From NCBI RefSeq assembly GCF_016859285.1, contig NC_053408.1, forward strand, positions 8,958,213 to 9,022,212: a stretch of 64,000 nucleotides of DNA, given 5' to 3'. Made by a program: the position numbers and the translations under genes. Source of the DNA: Xiphias gladius (lineage: Eukaryota; Chordata; Actinopteri; Istiophoriformes; Xiphiidae). This document shows positions 1,616 through 43,300 of this stretch, piece by piece. Position 1 is the stretch's first letter; every line of letters starts with the position of its first letter. The notes beneath the pieces are model-generated. The model worked only from the letters and a program-made list of their open reading frames with translations. It ran no database searches and was not told the origin of the DNA.

Positions 1616-4600
1616 ATATCCTCGTCATTTGATTCAATGGATCCCTTTGGTACAGGACAGGTGCTGCCTCCCCTGCAAGTTCCTCAGCCTACAGTGCAGG
1701 ACACCATAGTTCCCCCTCTGAAGAAGCCACCTAAGTGGGTGCGCAGGCCAGTGGGGGCTTCTTTTGCTGTAAGTGCAGCATTAGAGTATTCTATAAGTGT
1801 GTTAATGGAAAAGGCAAAATCCTCTCCTTTATGACTCACTTGTTGTTTGTTTTTTATTTCTCAGTTTGGTGGAAAGCTTATAACCTTTGAGAATCCCAAG
1901 CTGCCTCCAGTGCAGAGCCCCCAGCCCGTCCCCAGGCAAGTGTTTGTGAGCCAGGTTACCACGGAGACAGAGTTCCTCCAGCGCTCCAGGGAACTGCAGG
2001 CGGCACTGCAGACAGGTTCTTTTAACAACTACTGCCAGGCCAAGATTCAGAACGCCAAGTCAGACGCTGAGCAGGACATATGGAAGTTCCTTCTGGTGGG
2101 CCCTTAAGTACTCTTGATATTGAGACATAACATTAAGTCTGTCAGTCAGTGTTGTGCTACTGTATTCTAAATTAATTCACTTTTTTCTGTTTACAGGTCA
2201 ATTTTGAGGATGAAGCCCGCATTAAATTCCTCAGACTTTTGGGTTTCAGCAAAGATGAACTGGAGAGAAAGGTATTCTGCCTATGAATGAAACTGCAGAC
2301 ATCAGCTAATATCTATCATATATAAGCATTTACCTTACTCATCATCATCCTGTGTCTTAGCTGTAAAAATGTCATGTGTATTCAGATTTCAAAATGCCTG
2401 GGGAAGAATTTTCAACCCAACGGACATGGAGTAGATGCCAGAGATCTGGCAGAAAAGATGCAGCGGCTTTCCACCGAGGTCAGCAAATCTGCGCACACAC
2501 AGTTTATTTTCAAGTCTTTTTGACCATTGTTATTTGCAGCGCCTGATTACTGTGAAATACTCTTTTTTGTATTTCCAGAGAACTGATGAAGCAACTGCAC
2601 TAGGTGATGCAAGAACATCGGGTTCTGTTTCACCAGCAGACTTCTTCAGTCACACTCCAAAGGAAAACTCCAACTTCCAGATCCCTGTATCATGTGGTAA
2701 AATCCCTCACCTGCAAATACTGTTTGTTATGTTATTATCACAAGCAGTAGCTCTGTGAAGACATCTGACACCTTGTGGTTGTTATGCTTGCACGATTGCA
2801 AGCCTAACTGGGTGGATGGCTAACTACCTTGTTGTTCTTTTGAAGATACTGACGGGCTGATAAGCCAGGCGCTGTTGGTTGGTAACTTTGAGGGAGCTGT
2901 GGATCTGTGTCTGAATGATGGTCGGTACGCTGAGGCCATCCTCCTGTCTATCAGCGGGGGAGAGGAGCTGCTCAAGAAAACTCAGCAGAAATACCTAAGC
3001 ATGCAAAAGAACAGCATTTCAATGGTGAGAGCGTTAATGTTAAAGTTGATGTTGTTACATTTGTTTCATTGATTGTGGTTCAGTTGGTACAATTACAAGA
3101 AAAAAACGTATCTGTATGTTAAGTTAATTTAGTATGTCCTTGACTCTAGCTTATATCATCAGTGGTGACGCAGAACTGGAGAGACATAGTGCAAAGCTGT
3201 GAATTGGACAACTGGAAGGAGGCTCTCGCTGCTCTTCTGACCTATGCTCACCCTGAAGACTTTGCCCGTCTTTGCGGTAATTTGTTCACACTCATCATGC
3301 TGCGACTTGTCTCACTTCAGGGAGAACTGCACTGTTTCAGCAGTACTTGTTTTACTTGCTGAATAACATTTCTCTCCGCACTTACTCTGTCTGCTCTCAT
3401 GTCAGCCACCCCGCTTTCTTTAACATAGGTTCATTCTGTAATTCTTGGTAGATACGCTGGGAGGTCGGTTGGAGTGTGAGGGGACAGAGAAGCGATGCCT
3501 ACAGGCCTGTCTGTGTTACATCTGCTCTGGCAACGTCGAGAAGCTGGTTGAGTGCTGGGCCTTGCATAGAGACTGCTCCTCCCCTCTTGGTCTAGAGGTA
3601 TAATCTTTTTAATCTTTATTATATTACCCTAGGAAAAAAAAAAAATGTTGTTATCTTATTTATGTCCTTTTACTTTACAAAGACATCTTAAAGTACATGT
3701 CAGACAGAAGGATTCCGCCCCCGTAAAATGAATAAAGAATGGCTGCTTTTTCCATCATAAAGAAATGTCCTGACATGTCCAAAACTGGTGTAGCAGCTTG
3801 GGAAGAATCTGCAAGAGAATTTTTATGGGGTGCACATGCAACATCCCATTGTAGCCCAAAGGTGAGAGAAATGAGGAACGCAACAGTGACAGTGTCATGT
3901 GCCGTGTATTTTTACAGGATCTGGTTGAGAAAGTAATGATGCTGCGTAAGTCAATCGAACGCCTCCGCAACAGCGAGGTGGCAGTCCAGAGCCCCATCCT
4001 GGCCGAGAAGCTAACCTGCTACGCTGGAATACTTGCTGCAGAGGGCAGTCTGTCCACTGCCATGACCTACCTGCCCGAGAACTCAGACCAAGTGAGAGGC
4101 ATAGCAGCAACCTGATTTCAAAACCCCAAATTCATAATTTTGATTTACTTGGATTGTAATAAGCACCTTTGTGTATTTGCACCATTTTGTATCCCCAGCC
4201 TGGGATCATGATGCTGAGAGACAGGCTGTTCCATGCTCAGGGAGAGGCTGCCGTTGGACAGCAGGCTCCAAACTCCTTCAATAGAGTCAGCGTGTCAACA
4301 GCCAAGACCGCTCCTGCTGCTCAGACTCCTGCACCAAAAGCACAAATTATGGTATAAAGTTATGAGCAATCCAAACCATTAAATCATTCATGTATTTTGC
4401 AAGATTCTTTCCTACTATATTTAATTATGGATGGTTGAACTTTTCTTTAAACGTCATGACCATTAGGGTGATATTGATTTTTTTTTTTTTTTTTTTTTTG
4501 CAACCTTAGAGCCAGTACCAGCCCTCTGCCCCTCCCCAGGCGGCTGCACAACCGCAGCCTCCCATGCCATCAGCTTTTACCCCACAAGCTGCTCCAACCA

Positions 4601-6322
4601 ACACTGGGCCTGGTCTGCCACCCTCTTCTCATGTACTGCCGCCCAGTGCGACCCGCCCTGCCATGAGGCCTTCATACCCGCAACATCCTGCTCCGGCTCC
4701 AGGTTTGACTATTTGTACCATACTTAAAATGATTGCAGCCTGATTTTATTTGATGTAATGACACTTATATGTGTGCTTTCCCAGGTTTCCTGCCTCATCA
4801 GCCATTCCAGCCTCAGCCTATGACTATGGGCGGATCCTCAGCCTTCCCCCCTCCAGGTCCTTCTATGCCAGCTGCAAACTTATCAGGACCTCCACTACCA
4901 CCTTCATCATCAACCCCTGGAGGTCTGCCCCCGATGCCCAGCCCTGGGGTGCCACCATCAGGCTTCATGCCATCTACCTCTTTACCCTCAGGCCTCATGC
5001 CACCCAGCTCTCAGCCTGGAGCCCCAGTTCCCATGTACCAAGGGGGACTCCACAACCAGGGGCCTGCACCCCCCATGGCATCTGGTCCCTATGCTCCTCT
5101 CGGATCAGGGTATCCACAGGGAGGCCCCGGAGCTCCTGCTGTAAAGCCCTTCCCAACCCCTGCCGTTGCTCCTCCTCCTACAGGTACACACCCTGTTGTT
5201 CACCTTTTATAGTCAAGAGAACACAGTTACGTTCATTCCATTTGCTTTTTCACACGTGTTTGGCCAAATATTTCTAGATGGCAACAGACCTACACAGTGT
5301 TACAGATATTAACAGGATTCTGTTACTTATGGTGATTAACTTCTGTTCAGCTGTCATTCCTTATTTGACTTGCAGGATATTTTCCCTGGCTGAATTCCCA
5401 GTGTGACCATCAAGGTGACAGGGTTAGGTTTGGATATGGAATCAGAGTGCATTGAAACATACACTGAGCGACAATATAAAAAAAAAAAATAAAATGTTGT
5501 TATCTTATTTATGTCCTTTTACTTTACAAAGACATCTTAAAGTACATGTCAGACAGAAGGATTCCGCCCCCGTAAAATGAATAAAGAATGGCTGCTTTTT
5601 CCATCATAAAGAAATGTCCTGACATGTCCAAAACTGGTGTAGCAGCTTGGGAAGAACCTGCAAGAGAATTTTTATGGGGTGCACATGCAACATCCCATTG
5701 TAGCCCAAAGGTGAGAGAAATGAGGAACGCAACAGTGACAGTGTCATGTGCCGTGTATTTTACAGGATCTGGTTGAGAAAGTAATGATGCTGCGTAAGTC
5801 AATCGAACGCCTCCGCAACAGCGAGGTGGCAGTCCAGAGCCCCATCCTGGCCGAGAAGCTAACCTGCTACGCTGGAATACTTGCTGCAGAGGGCAGTCTG
5901 TCCACTGCCATGACCTACCTGCCCGAGAACTCAGACCAAGTGAGAGGCATAGCAGCAACCTGATTTCAAAACCCCAAATTCATAATTTTGATTTACTTGG
6001 ATTGTAATAAGCACCTTTGTGTATTTGCACCATTTTGTATCCCCAGCCTGGGATCATGATGCTGAGAGACAGGCTGTTCCATGCTCAGGGAGAGGCTGCC
6101 GTTGGACAGCAGGCTCCAAACTCCTTCAATAGAGTCAGCGTGTCAACAGCCAAGACCGCTCCTGCTGCTCAGACTCCTGCACCAAAAGCACAAATAATGG
6201 TATAAAGTTATGAGCAATCCAAACCATTAAATCATTCATGTATTTTGCAAGATTCTTTCCTACTATATTTAATTATGGATGGTTGAACTTTTCTTTAAAC
6301 GTCATGACCATTAGGGTGATAT

Positions 6323-6353
<31 letters not shown>

Positions 6354-9300
6354 GCAACCTTAGAGCCAGTACCAGCCCTCTGCCCCTCCCCAGGCGGCTG
6401 CACAACCGCAGCCTCCCATGCCATCAGCTTTTACCCCACAAGCTGCTCCAACCAACACTGGGCCTGGTCTGCCACCCTCTTCTCATGTACTGCCGCCCAG
6501 TGCGACCCGCCCTGCCATGAGGCCTTCATACCCGCAACATCCTGCTCCGGCTCCAGGTTTGACTATTTGTACCATACTTAAAATGATTGCAGGCAGATTT
6601 TATTTGATGTAATGACACTTATACGTGTGCTTTCCCAGGTTTCCTGCCTCATCAGCCATTCCAGCCTCAGCCTATGACTATGGGTGGATCCTCAGCCTTC
6701 CCCCCTCCAGGTCCTTCTATGCCAGCTGCAAACTTATCAGGACCTCCACTACCACCTTCATCATCAACCCCTGGAGGTCTGCCCCCGATGCCCAGCCCTG
6801 GGGTGCCACCATCAGGCTTCATGCCATCTACCTCTTTACCCTCAGGCCTCATGCCACCCAGCTCTCAGCCTGGAGCCCCAGTTCCCATGTACCCAGGGGG
6901 ACTCCACAACCAGGGGCCTGCACCCCCCATGGCATCTGGTCCCTATGCTCCTCTCGGATCAGGGTATCCACAGGGAGGCCCCGGAGCTCCTGCTGTAAAG
7001 CCCTTCCCAACCCCTGCCGTTGCTCCTCCTCCTACAGGTACACACCCTGTTGTTCACCTTTTATAGTCAAGAGAACACAGTTACGTTCATTCCATTTGCT
7101 TTTTCACACGTGTTTGGCCAAATATTTCTAGATGGCAACAGACCTACACAGTGTTACAGATATTAACAGGATTCTGTTACTTATGGTGATTAACTTCTGT
7201 TCAGCTGTCATTCCTTATTTGACTTGCAGGATATTTTCCCTGGCTGAATTCCCAGTGTGACCATCAAGGTGACAGGGTTAGGTTTGGATATGGAATCAGA
7301 GTGCATTGAAACATACACTGAGCGACAATATAAAAAAAAAAAATACAAACACCTTTAAAGTATAGTACAATGCAATACAATATTCCTGCATTAAGTTGCA
7401 CCTTTGTGTTGGATTGCATTTCATTGCACAGGCTTCAATATTTTTCTGGTCACTCAGCGTGTGTTTGGTAGTGCTTGCTTGTGCTTCCGTATGTTTCAGG
7501 GAAACTTAGTGACTTAAGAGAACCAAACATGATAAACAAAACAAAAAGTTTCTAGGCCTGAATAAAGAGACTGTAGGTTTTATATTGGATCATACAGTGT
7601 CAGTCGCTTAAAGATAACATACACAGTCATACGTTCATAGTGCAAATTAAGACTTAATTGAAACATTTTACAACATTTCCAGTTATTACATATGTTTGAG
7701 CTGTTGCTGTTGACAGATTAGGAGAATGCTGCATGAACATTTTGCAGTATTTGCTGTTTTGTTTTTTACATAAACTGCTGGAGTCTACAGACTAATGTCA
7801 CGTTCTCACTTTAAGCTTTTTGCCATCTAGACTAACCTAGGCTCAAAGAGATTGTCTCATGTAGACGATCTTTGACTGCTTGAGTGTGACCACAGGAGAA
7901 AATGCTTTTCGTTTCTTTCTGATTCTCACTTGTCTTCTGATTTAGGACCTCAAGAGGGCTGGAATGACCCACCAGCAGTACGGGGTGGACCCAGGAAGAA
8001 GAAGGTATTCCTGCATTTATCGCTATTAAAATAGGGTTTTAGGTCTTGCAATTTTTTTCAGTCCCTGCAATATTTCCTTTTAAAGTATGTTTAAAAATTA
8101 GAATAATATGCTTGCAAACGTGTGAGCAAACTTTCCATCATTTAGTTTTCCAGTCCACAACTTTACTAAACCAGCTTCGATGCAAATGCAAAATGTCCAG
8201 GGATCTCCTCCCCCTGAGAAGAACTGAAGTAAGGAGTTAGAGCAAATAGTTATGTGTACATTTCCGTTACATACTTCTGTAGGAACTTAAACATTGACGC
8301 ATTTAATGACATGCTTAAATGTCCTCCGAGATAGCGGTTCTCAAACTTTTTTGTTTGACATACTTAGGGGGACTCGGGCTCTTGGATACTGTAGCTTTAA
8401 GGAACTTTTTCACAGTTTTTCACTGCAGAGTAAACCCCCTGTCTGTGGGGGATTCCTGGAACATGGAAATTCACACAAAACACAGTGGTCCCGCAACTGT
8501 CGACATTTAGTCTTGGTCCCTTTTTTCAGTAGATTAGTTACCATTTTGAGTGACAAAATCCGGACATTTCAACCACTTATATATTAGTTTTAATTGTTTA
8601 TGTCGACTTCTCTGCTTGTTTGCTGACAAGTTTTCTTGTTACTGCTTATTGTGACAATAAATATAAAAAGACAAAATCAGCAAGAGTTTCCACTTATCCC
8701 TTGGCGTCTTAGTTATTCCAGTCTTTCCATTTACGCCCTGGTAATTGCCAGATTATCTTTACAAGTATCCCTGGATTACAATCGTTGCTGTAAGATAAAT
8801 GTAAGAGTGCTGTGTAGTAATACTGGGAAAAGTTAAATAATTTAACCCATCAGGAGCTGAGTTCAATAATTCAAGTCATCATTCATTCTTAAAGCTCCAC
8901 TAATAAATGATTTTCAATAATGTATCAAATTAATACATATAATTTAAAAGGGGTTTTGTGTAGGGAAAAATAGAGAAATATCATTCTCTCATTAACCTTC
9001 TTTCCAGCAGCAGAATGCAGATGTTTTCAACGAACAAACTCTAAAAAACCCGCTGTGAACTACCTGCTCTGCACTAAATGACAGACCGATGAAATGTTAC
9101 TACTAAAGTAACTACCTAACTGAGTTAACTAAAGTTGAACATCCAGTCAGAAAGTTGTGGAGGTCCTCTGGCCAAGTGTTCCAAAAAGTCAGCTAATGTA
9201 GCTTTAATAACATGTCAAATCTAAACTGCTGGAAACACAGTCTCAGTGTTTTAAACCTCCCTCTCACTGACTGGTTATGTGTTACTGTTGTCGCAGGTCC

Positions 9301-10825
9301 CTGATAACTACACTCCACCAGCCCCCATCACAGCCCCTGTGATGGGATTCCCGGTGGAGGCTCCTCAGCCTCACGACCATGCCCAAGTCCCACCTGGAGC
9401 CCCGCAGGAGCCCAGCGTGCAGGTTGGTGTGTGACAAGGGGCCGTTATCTGAATTCTCAAGAATAACACACACGCCAAACACGTCAGCACCTTGTATTTG
9501 TTTCCTTGTTTTGCTCAGCTTCTCCAGCAGTTGCCAGCAGAGAGGGTGGAGCAGAAAGAAATCCCCGCTGAACACATGGTCCTCAAATCCACCTTTGACA
9601 GCCTGGTGCAGCGCTGCCAGCTAGCAGCAGGGGACCCTGTAAGTCCCACGGCCTGTCTGTGGCATCATTCAGATTTTTCTGTGTTTGTAATAAAGCTGGT
9701 ATTGATTTTAAGGAAAAGGTTTGATGAAATATTAAAAGACCAAAAATATTTCCATTTCAGCAAACAAAAAGGAAACTTGATGATGCAGCCAAACGTTTGG
9801 GATACCTGTATGACAAGCTGAGGGACCAGTCGGTAAGGAATTATTCATGCGAACAAGGTTGTCATTGTGCTGCAAAAATAAATTATCTAAACAAAAACTG
9901 AAGAAAAGCTGTTTTTCAGCCATGTCCTGAAGTTAAAACGGCAGTAGGCTGAGTGTTGATGTGAAAGTACTCCTACTCTCCTAGATTAGAAAGTGAAAAG
10001 TCTTCTGTTTTTTTCTGATTGAGTCTCCGTTGATTTGCCCCCTTTGATTTAGTTGAAATTCTGGTGTTGAGTAGGACCCCTGAGAGAGTCTCCTCTGCTC
10101 AGTGCCCACATGCAGTGAGGATTTAAAGCTTTTGTGAAGTAAAGAGAAGCTCTGCTAATGTCAGAAGAAATGATTATATTTCAGAAAAGTCTTAAGCATA
10201 AGGGGAAGCATAAGGTTTACAAGTTGGGAAAAGTAAAGACGAGCAAAACGAACAAAAAAAGAATCTGCACTGTAGGTCAGACATCACGCTGAGGTTAGAT
10301 TGATAAATACCAGCGGACATTTTGACTTGTCATAGCTGGAAAAGCACAGTTGTAACTAATCACACTAAAGATGGCCCCGTTCCATTTAGTGTCTCAGGGA
10401 GCCGCTCGGGCGAGTGTGCAGAACATGTGGGTCCTGGAACTGCCTCACCTAAGCAGAAGGCTGCCCTTATTAATGTAATTAATCACACCTGCGCTTCTCC
10501 TGCTATGACAAGCCAAATGTCTGCCGTTTCAAAAGGTCTACTATACTCACCTCTGCCAACCAGTTTCTAGGGAACCTGCGGTAGGCATTTAAACACCAGG
10601 TGCCCCTTATAAACATATAATATTATGTCCCCGCCAATCTCGTAGCTCTCTCACAGCATCCTGAACGGGCTCCACGAGATCAGCCGCTGTGTGGCGAGCC
10701 AGAACTACCAGCGCGGCCTGGAGGTCCACACACAGGTGGTCAGCAGCAGCAACTTCAGCGAGATCTCCGCCTTCATGCCCATCCTCAAAGTGGTCATGAC
10801 CATCGCCAACAAGCTGAGCGTCTAA
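1616..10825 (+). CDS. sec31b: Sec31 COPII outer-coat protein, C-terminal two thirds (5' partial), probably sec31b
   Basis: Sec31 pairs with Sec13 to form the outer cage of COPII vesicles leaving the ER and stimulates Sar1 GTP hydrolysis through Sec23. Exons read: 1616-1768, 1865-2095, 2197-2271, 2386-2478, 2579-2696, 2846-3024, 3150-3276, 3452-3597, then a duplicated set 3918-4091, 4199-4351, 4510-4702, 4785-5183 (second copy 5766-7037), then 7946-8004, 9297-9422, 9519-9638, 9761-9832, 10646-10825. With one copy of the set this gives 865 codons plus stop, all phases matching. Visible parts are the helical solenoid (WRRPVGASF-like start, [10 protein letters not shown]), a proline-rich stretch, the GWNDPP motif at 7946 that in this family reaches the Sar1/Sec23 site, and the C-terminal helical domain ending in NKLSV. 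The WD40 propeller is absent because upstream exons fall outside the window. The b paralogue is inferred from linkage to scd; sec31a is the alternative. Confidence 0.93.
3643..5491 (+). repeat. Intragenic tandem duplication, copy 1 (four sec31 exons)
   Basis: This 1849-base block repeats immediately downstream with about seven substitutions and two homopolymer-length differences seen by eye, so about 99.5 percent identity. It contains coding exons a (3918-4091, phase 0 to 0), b (4199-4351, 0 to 0), c (4510-4702, 0 to 1) and d (4785-5183, 1 to 1), plus introns. Exon a belongs to the helical solenoid; c and d encode most of the proline-rich linker. Both copy boundaries lie in A-rich runs near 3633-3645 and 5479-5494, which suggests microhomology at the junction. 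It may be a real recent duplication or a false duplication of two haplotypes in the assembly. Confidence 0.95.
5492..7345 (+). repeat. Intragenic tandem duplication, copy 2 (four sec31 exons)
   Basis: Second copy, 1854 bases. Its exons are 5766-5939, 6047-6199, 6364-6556 and 6639-7037, all with intact splice sites and open frames. The only amino-acid difference from copy 1 that I found is in exon d, where a Gln codon (YQGG, near 5038) becomes Pro (YPGG, near 6893). Splicing copy 1 exon d (ending with one base over) to copy 2 exon a (starting in phase 0) would reach a TGA after three codons. So the two full sets cannot both be included in one open message. Confidence 0.95.
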
Positions 10826-39924: not shown

Positions 39925-40279
39925 ATGGAAGTTTTACGTCCAGTTCTGATCAATGTGAATGGAAGAATATACCGAAGAAACATGCTTAAGGAAGAACATT
40001 ATGAGGAAGAAGAGGATTTCTCCTACATGGGACCGACAGGTTTGTCAGTGTATACAGATGCACTACAAGCGTACACCCACTTGGCAGTTTATAAGTCACA
40101 CCAAGCTAAAGCTAATGCATTATAATACAGAACTCCTGCAATAAATCCTGTCCTCAGTAAGGTTATAGTGTTCCGTTTCTTGTTGAAACTGTGTTAAAGA
40201 GGTGTAGATTCAACTGTGTGATCATTTTTGGAGGCTTTGGTCTGTGGTGCTGTTGAACTGTATTGCATTATACACAGAG

Positions 40280-40342
<63 letters not shown>

Positions 40343-43300
40343 GAGCCTACCCTCAATGATTTGAATGGGTTGGACAAAATAAATAGGAACACCTGTCAAC
40401 ATAACGCGGTGCACCACAGACTACACCCTCTAAAATGATCATACAGTTGAATCAACACCTCTTTAACACAGTTTCAACAACAAACTGAATATTGAAATTT
40501 ACGTGAGGGAGGATTTACTGCAAGACTGCTGTATTAGACTGCATTAGTTCTATTAGACTGCAGTGCAGTCTTGGTAGCAGTCACATTTTCTTAAAAAAAA
40601 AAAACAATGATATGTTTGTATGTTTGTGGTTTACCATGTTTAGAGAGTGAAGAGCTTGCAGCAGATGAAACCTGTGATACCCACGTCATTGAACAGACTG
40701 ATAAAGGATACCGCTGTGCCATTGACGTCCCAAGTGTTCTTTACAAGTGAGTCGTCTACAAAATGCACGTTACGCTTGTTCTGCATTTTCCTCAACTTCA
40801 AGAGCATATGAGGTTTTGTTTGTAAACGGCATAATGTGAGTGTGCTTCCTTGTATGCTCCGCTGTTTCACAGATACATCATTGGGAAAAAAGGAGAGACA
40901 CGCAGACGTCTAGAGTTCGACACAAAGACATCTATCAGCATACCAAAACAAGGAGTGGAGGGACAGATTGGTGAGGTCTAAGAGCAAATCTAGCTATCAT
41001 AAAACAGATGAGGGAGCACGCTCTTGGAAAAAAAAGTTTTTCTCTCAACTTTCTTCCATCTTCTGACAGTTATCACAGGTTCCCACAAAGCTGCAGTCTC
41101 GTCTGCAGTCACACGAGTTGAGGTCCTTGTTGACAGTTTCCGGAGAAAGCAGCCTTTCACACACTTCCTGTCATTCCCTCTGAATGATCCCAAAATTCAA
41201 GAAGGATTCCTAAAATTTAAAGATGAGGTGTTGCAGCAGTGTTCACAGGTATTTTATTATATACCTTTTTATATTTAATAACAAATATAATAAAATATAA
41301 TATATATTTGTGCACATTCTTCATTTAGTCCTTGCACTTGTCACTTTCACATGCTTCATCTAACTGGAGTTTTCTTTGTGTATTGCTGTCCACCTCCACT
41401 GCTACACAATTTAATTATTGGTTGCACATGTCACACGTGTTTTTTTGCATTTGTCACTTTCATATATTTCATATACCTCGCATAGCATAGTCCATATTTC
41501 TTTTAAATTTTTGTATCTCATTTCACAAATAACCTAATTGTCTGTCTTCTGTTTTGCACTCTCGAGCAAATGCCAAGACATATTCTTTGTATGTTTGCAT
41601 AATTGGCTAATATAAACAGATTCTGATTCTGAGGTACTATAGAAGGAAATGTAAATTTGAATAGTGAAAATGAGGGGCAGTGATGGCCATGTATCATTTA
41701 ATATCAGTTCATTATATTGTTAATAAATTCTAAGATCACAAACTGTTGTAACCTGATGTGTAGGATCATGGATTAGAGGGAAGCATCTTTCAGAACCCTG
41801 CAAAGCTTCACCTGACAGTCGGCACCATGGCTCTGTTAAATGAGATGGAAGTGAGAAAAGCATGTGAACACCTCCAAGAGTGTCAAAACTTCATCAGGTA
41901 GGGGCGAGACAAAGTCGTCGTATCATACTAAGATTTCAACCGTGTAACAGAAAAATACTTTCTTTATTTAAGATTAAACAAAACTAAAATTACTGCTTGA
42001 AAGGATAAATCTGGTGATATTCTGTGCTCTTCTTATTGATTGCAAAGCCCATGAAAAACAAGAATGAATTGATCCTGCTAACAAGCACTGCCTGTGAAGC
42101 CAAACTCTGACATAATTTACTCCTTGCTGCCACAAACCTCCATTGTCAGGCTGACATGTCCCTTCATTACGATGTACTTGGGCACTGTAGTTTATTTTCA
42201 GTCAATCCCACATACGCCGTCCTGCTGTTATAAATACTCACTAGGGCACCGAAGCCTCGGGTGAAAATAGTCCCCAACAAATATAGTATTTAAACCTATT
42301 TGAGTGATGTTTGCTAAAAACTACGGTGCCCAGCTGTAGGAAATGATTTAGCCTGGTTTTCAAATGAAAGTATACATTTGTGACCTGTTTTTAAATACTT
42401 AAATCTTCAGTTGTAACTGATGAACTCTGGACTGAGTACTACACACAAGCTGGGTCAGTTAAAAAGTATTGAGAGACGGATTATTCTATTGGTTTTGGTC
42501 CATTCAATGGATTTGCTGACAATAAGAGAAACATAGATGATCACCAGCATTATCCTTTAAGAGTAAATGAACTCCTGTCTTCGTACCTTTTTAAGTAGTT
42601 AAATTGGATTAGATGTAATTAGATTGGATTTGATTGTATAGAGTAGATAAGCTTTTCTCTTGAATGTTAGATTTTACTAAAAATTTGTATGGCGTCACAG
42701 GCCAGCTCAGTTGCACATACACAGTAAAATGTGATATTACAGACGGCTAAAACACATCAGGAAACATAAGAGAAACTGTAGAGACAAACCTGAACTGTAA
42801 ACCCGGTGTGAACCACACGAGTGTTCTTTGTGTTGTCTTTCATCAGAGACATCACAGAGGGAAAACCTCTGCCCTTGGAGGTGACAGGCATAGAGTACAT
42901 GAATGATGACCCAGCCATGGTGGATGTCTTGTATGCCAAAGTCAATGTGAAAGACGGATCTGACAAGTGAGTGGGTCCGTAAAAAATCATGCAAAGAAAT
43001 AAAACCATTTAAAAAGCTGACACCACACTGTTTAAAAATGTTCCGCCTGTTTGAATCTCTGTTTCGGTTGTTTTTTTTGTTTTTGTTTTTATTACCACAC
43101 TTTAGGTTGCAGGTGATTGCAGACCGACTGGTAGAGCACTTTGTCTCTACAGGGCTGATGGTCAGAGAGTGGGACAGAGTGAAGCTGCATGGCACCGTGA
43201 TAAACACTGTGTTCAGAAAGGACTCCACAGGTAAAAACATTACAAACACATGACGGGCTAACCAGCACGAATGCAAACAGCATCTGCGCCTGCAGCTTTT

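Follow-up and report, generated by a model that had tools for sequence, protein, structure and literature searches.

A tandem repeat of four exons within a predicted sec31 gene

We analysed a 64,000-nucleotide stretch of the Xiphias gladius genome (GCF_016859285.1, NC_053408.1), hereafter the window, whose coordinates are used throughout; the sec31 exons, repeat units and A tracts described for the window lie on the + strand. The window carries a predicted sec31 gene in which a block of four internal exons, named A to D, is present twice in tandem. The window was searched against itself by BLASTN, and the edges of the repeated unit were then set by template matching. The BLASTN search returned a single long near-identical direct repeat (3634-5494 versus 5482-7349; 1869 alignment columns, 99.14% identity, 7 mismatches and 4 gap openings). 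Template matching resolved this repeat into two units lying head to tail, copy 1 at 3642..5490 (1849 bp) and copy 2 at 5491..7344 (1854 bp), the offset between them rising from 1849 at the left end to 1854 at the right; the placement of the unit is ambiguous by 1 bp. Compared column by column, the copies differ in their core by seven substitutions and by the length of two T runs, which gives an ungapped identity of 99.6% (7 substitutions over ~1,848 positions) and a divergence of 0.38%. One length difference is a single T at 3909. The other concerns the T run before exon C, which is T22 in copy 1 (4478-4499) and T28 in copy 2 (6326-6353); the longer run, minus the single T, accounts for the greater length of copy 2, and it might serve as a length marker to type both copies. 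For a repeat of such length and identity a chance origin is ruled out. The original prediction, which placed a near-identical repeat of about 99.5% identity at 3643-7345, was therefore borne out with minor adjustment (3642-7344, 99.6% without gaps).

The two copies meet within the sequence A12-T-A4 (5478..5494). Their source ends share a perfect overlap of 1 bp, base 5491, and around the join (5483-5491) 8 of the 9 bases of both source ends agree. An A12 tract is also found at the left edge of copy 1 (3634..3645) and at the right edge of copy 2 (7332..7343). In agreement with the proposal that the copies are joined near 5491 within an A-rich run, template matching located the junction at base 5491, to within 1 bp. 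A 28-mer spanning the junction occurs once in the assembly to which the window belongs (690.8 Mb in 1298 contigs, the window being located on contig C9).

The predicted gene model consists of 17 exons (e1-e8, A-D and e13-e17) and extends from 1616 to 10825. Exons were joined on the basis of splice motifs and frame continuity, and for some boundaries by comparison with human SEC31A. All predicted introns are of the GT/AG type and, with either copy taken singly, no stop interrupts the frame between e1 and the termination codon at 10825. Upstream of the block lie the single-copy exons e1 (1616-1768), e2 (1865-2095), e3 (2197-2271), e4 (2386-2478), e5 (2579-2696), e6 (2846-3024), e7 (3150-3276) and e8 (3452-3597). 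The first copy of the block contains exons A1 (3918..4091; 174 nt, entered and left in phase 0), B1 (4199..4351; 153 nt, likewise phase 0 at both ends), C1 (4510..4702; 193 nt, phase 0 in and 1 out) and D1 (4785..5183; 399 nt, phase 1 at both ends). Their counterparts in the second copy are A2 (5766..5939), B2 (6047..6199), C2 (6364..6556) and D2 (6639..7037). Downstream of the block, again in single copy, are e13 (7946-8004), e14 (9297-9422), e15 (9519-9638), e16 (9761-9832) and e17 (10646-10825), the last of which contains the native stop. As had been predicted, each 1.85 kb copy holds four intact coding exons, which in both copies are open and bordered by AG/GT splice sites. Three substitutions fall in coding sequence: those at 4348/6196 (Ile) and 4831/6685 (Gly) are silent, and the one at 5040/6894 replaces Gln in D1 by Pro in D2. 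The remaining four, at 3808, 4739, 4741 and 4770 of copy 1, are non-coding.

The duplicated block does not preserve the predicted reading frame

In the predicted model the block A-D measures 919 nt (1 mod 3); its first exon begins in phase 0 and its last ends in phase 1. Splicing of D1 to A2 puts A2 out of frame, so that the join reads TGSG followed by a stop, the fourth codon of A2 being TGA; eight exon junctions (A2-B2 to e16-e17) lie downstream of it. A stop codon that is followed by exon junctions is expected to trigger nonsense-mediated decay of the message. Predicted transcripts that contain copy 1 alone or copy 2 alone each encode 865 residues up to the native stop. Thus, in the gene model, the block is not frame-neutral and a transcript containing both copies stops early; its product would be without e13 and the C-terminal exons. 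An in-frame gain of the exon block is accordingly rejected for this model.

Other ways of joining the copies were also considered on the predicted model. The joins D1-B2, D1-C2 and C1-A2 result in an early stop too. Three joins are open to the native stop: A1-A2 (924 codons including the stop), B1-A2 (975) and D1-D2 (999). On paper, the frame could also be restored by candidate alternative acceptors inside A2 (5782, 5833, 5890 and 5935) or by candidate alternative donors of D1 (4948, 5026, 5140, 5164, 5194 and 5197). Seven of the 13 possible four-exon blocks (e1-e8, A-D and e13-e16; 16 exons) would keep the frame; frame failure therefore argues against a function of the duplication but is not rare by chance.

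Identity of the gene and a second sec31 locus

The predicted product matches the SEC31 chains 2pm6, 2pm7 and 3mzl of the PDB (E values 8.6e-9, 1.9e-8 and 8e-8, respectively), which we take to be yeast chains; the best-matching stretch covers query residues 186-362 only, upstream of the block. It also matches the Pfam family TPR_Sec16 (E 2.6e-8). Similarity to the solenoid, together with a GWNDPP motif in e13, marks the gene as a putative Sec31 of the COPII outer coat. By eye, we take GWNDPP to be the counterpart of W922/N923 of yeast Sec31. The active fragment of yeast Sec31 contains this Trp-Asn pair, and yeast whose otherwise full-length Sec31 lacked only the active fragment showed no growth defect (PMC7594496). 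For this reason loss of the C-terminal region and decay of the message would weigh more than loss of the Trp-Asn pair.

The sec31 protein query gave 15 matches in the assembly, 11 on C9 and 4 on contig C20, so sec31 is not confined to the window. To the neighbouring genes on C9 we applied a Pfam scan, in which 19 different open reading frames of the 366 found were used. Above the Pfam cut-offs were DnaJ, DUF1977, RTP801_C and AKAP7_NLS; FA_desaturase scored below its cut-off, and the corresponding gene was named scd by eye. Genes resembling scd, dnajb12 and ddit4 adjoin the sec31 gene of the window. The names ddit4 and ascc1 used for neighbours are those of genes located on human chromosome 10. 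SEC31B is located near SCD1, and DNAJB12a and DNAJB12b are near teleost SCD1b and SCD1a, respectively (PMC3112091). Judged by this SCD1/DNAJB12 neighbourhood, the window gene is most likely sec31b, and the C20 locus is probably sec31a.

In a 17 kb region from C20, homologues of exon A and exon B match once each; no match for the proline-rich exons C and D was found there below the cut used, and a single unit is therefore shown for A and B only. Read by eye, the homologue of A at this locus begins in phase 0 and that of e13 in phase 1. These are the same edge phases as in the window, which supports the window gene model. From work in zebrafish it was suggested that, in certain tissues, Sec31b may substitute for Sec31a (PMC11463966); in X. 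gladius, the reverse, Sec31a compensating for Sec31b, may apply. A limited literature search found no publication on a sec31 exon duplication.

Two repeats were noticed at the C20 sec31 locus (segment L039): a minisatellite with a 12-base step (L039 2712-2876; C20 about 22200711-22200875), and, flanked by the exon B and e13 homologues, a direct repeat of ~220 bp with about 83% identity (L039 7457-7675 and 9148-9367).

Assembly surroundings of the repeat

No N is present within 264 kb of contiguous assembly around the repeat, so the gap that usually, though not obligatorily, separates falsely duplicated copies is not encountered here. With the low-complexity filter on, a search of these 264 kb for further direct repeats (40 bp or longer, at least 93% identical and spaced within 6 kb) found none. 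When the block was used as a query against the whole assembly, full-length matches were obtained only at the two copies in the window, the other 4 of the 6 matches being 30-52 bp long. The right flank matched at 100% only its own place, with no second close copy among the 40 matches scored out of 131 candidates. The absence of a third copy of the block and of a second right flank means that no leftover haplotig is visible, and neither search, with the block or with the right flank, revealed an alternate haplotype of this place in the assembly.

A separate observation concerns the flank itself. The intron between e13 and e14 contains a dispersed element of ~100 bp (8986-9106) that is found on many contigs at 73-83% identity, and this element draws 38 of the 40 matches of the flank query that were scored out of 131 candidates.

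Origin of the repeat

The original prediction offered two explanations, a very young duplication and two haplotypes wrongly placed in series, and these are still the two that matter. Its statement that low divergence cannot separate them also holds, since unequal exchange between homologues would give an identical sequence. Used as a clock, the divergence corresponds to 0.3 to 0.6 million years at an assumed 3 to 6e-9 substitutions per site and year; differences between haplotypes would look alike. We give an even chance to a genuine, young, frame-breaking tandem duplication within sec31b, carried by the sequenced fish on one chromosome or both, and place such a real allele slightly ahead of an artefact, the two being close to even. 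A real allele is favoured because there is no N in 264 kb, because the source ends overlap by 1 bp, and because neither a third copy nor a similar repeat nearby was found.

If the duplication is genuine, a unit of 1.85 kb with an A12 tract at either edge would have been copied head to tail, possibly by template switching or by joining of ends with hardly any homology. Alternatively, it may have arisen by unequal exchange between homologues, in which case the copies would have differed from birth to the extent that heterozygous sequences do. Splicing of both units would shift the frame, bring in the stop at the fourth codon of A2 and presumably expose the message to nonsense-mediated decay, and normal Sec31b would have to come from transcripts leaving out exons equivalent to one unit. 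The allele would then be a predicted loss-of-function or hypomorphic one, tolerable if heterozygous or through the second sec31 gene. Judged by the gene model, the duplication would not be a protein-building event. The claim of a "very young exon-block duplication in a core COPII gene" therefore stands in part: a young duplication is still a live alternative, but the block breaks the frame and this sec31 is not the only one. It is better described as an allele, predicted to be loss-of-function or splice-dependent, in one of two sec31 genes.

An assembly error is a strong competitor, to which we give somewhat less than an even chance. According to this explanation two haplotypes, or one sequence twice, were put in series by the assembler or by gap filling; each real chromosome would carry one unit, and the seven substitutions would be ordinary heterozygous sites. 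An overlap of 1 bp is far too short for an overlap-based assembly merge. A chimeric read or a gap filler could nevertheless create such a join. Several points weigh in favour of an error and against a real allele. Selection should act against a frame break in a conserved gene; for an artefact the frame is irrelevant, and breaking it has no cost. Coding and non-coding sequence are equally divergent (3/919 and 4/929 substitutions, respectively; Fisher p = 1), as allelic differences would be, and a divergence of 0.38% is plausible as heterozygosity, with which it is compatible without being diagnostic.

There is also precedent for such an error. PMC9516828 names a class of false exon gain (FEG), for which at least one coding exon has to lie wholly inside the duplicated stretch; here there are four. 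In an earlier zebra finch assembly, four of the ten exons of GABRG2 were falsely duplicated in tandem (PMC8081667), a direct precedent of the same shape. Of the false duplication in three earlier assemblies, 7 to 24% lay within one scaffold; in their three newer counterparts, from the Vertebrate Genomes Project, the same-scaffold share was the larger part of what remained, at 22.2 of 24.1, 4.8 of 5.8 and 3.4 of 5.6 Mbp (PMC9516828). The range given in the same paper for false duplications of raw-read length, 1 to 50 kbp, would include the present unit.

On the other side, the surroundings differ from those described for false duplications. An assembly gap was most often found between false copies, and a true allele-specific tandem duplication was found within one contig (PMC9516828). 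The same paper states that the false duplications left in newer assemblies exceeded those of earlier ones in size. At contig boundaries, false duplications had about the length of a read and were followed by a gap after scaffolding (PMC8081667); such a pattern is not obvious here, though reads from 1 kbp are allowed for in PMC9516828. Thus the sec31b repeat resembles FEG and GABRG2 in that coding exons of one gene are repeated, four of them in tandem as in GABRG2, but differs in having a unit of 1.85 kb and a join without a gap and nearly without overlap.

Much less probable is a real duplication, common or fixed, that is in use, with sec31b kept alive only by skipping of one unit or by the phase-matched joins A1-A2, B1-A2 or D1-D2. 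That these three joins are predicted to be open to the native stop, and that neither copy lacks a splice site, would fit such use. However, splicing in genomic order is predicted to give an early stop, and the sole splice-site difference seen is the one T fewer before A2. A longer Sec31b made by partial joins would repeat the end of its solenoid or have a longer proline-rich linker to the inner coat.

An old, functional duplication that keeps the frame of a core COPII gene is very improbable and is refuted for the predicted gene model: every exon is open in both copies, but the 919 nt of the block cannot be divided by three and the copies together stop early, near-identity speaks against age, and the homologues of exons A and B match once each at the C20 locus.

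Comparison with other duplications and implications

Two other duplications within genes offer a comparison. Like the 12.3 kb duplication in pig VWF (PMC5919753), the repeat involves a stretch inside a gene; unlike it, the sec31b unit is smaller and is known from sequence alone. With the functional duplicated exon of the COE family (PMC2394523) it shares the duplication of exon sequence within a gene, but the sec31b unit starts and ends in different phases and breaks the frame.

Taken at face value, the repeat could lead annotation to a truncated sec31b, to an invented extra set of exons or to a lineage-specific exon gain, and the phase test speaks against the last of these under either origin. 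More generally, claims of exon-block duplication can be screened quickly by checking exon phases. Should the allele be true, it would represent a natural loss of function of sec31b in a fish that keeps a second sec31, and could show to what extent the two genes replace each other. If it is both true and rescued by splicing, it would provide a natural test of linker length in COPII assembly.

Elsewhere in the window, an inverted repeat of ~140 bp with 83% identity (40112-40250 and 40411-40547) surrounds a (GT)30 tract and is possibly the remnant of a small DNA transposon.

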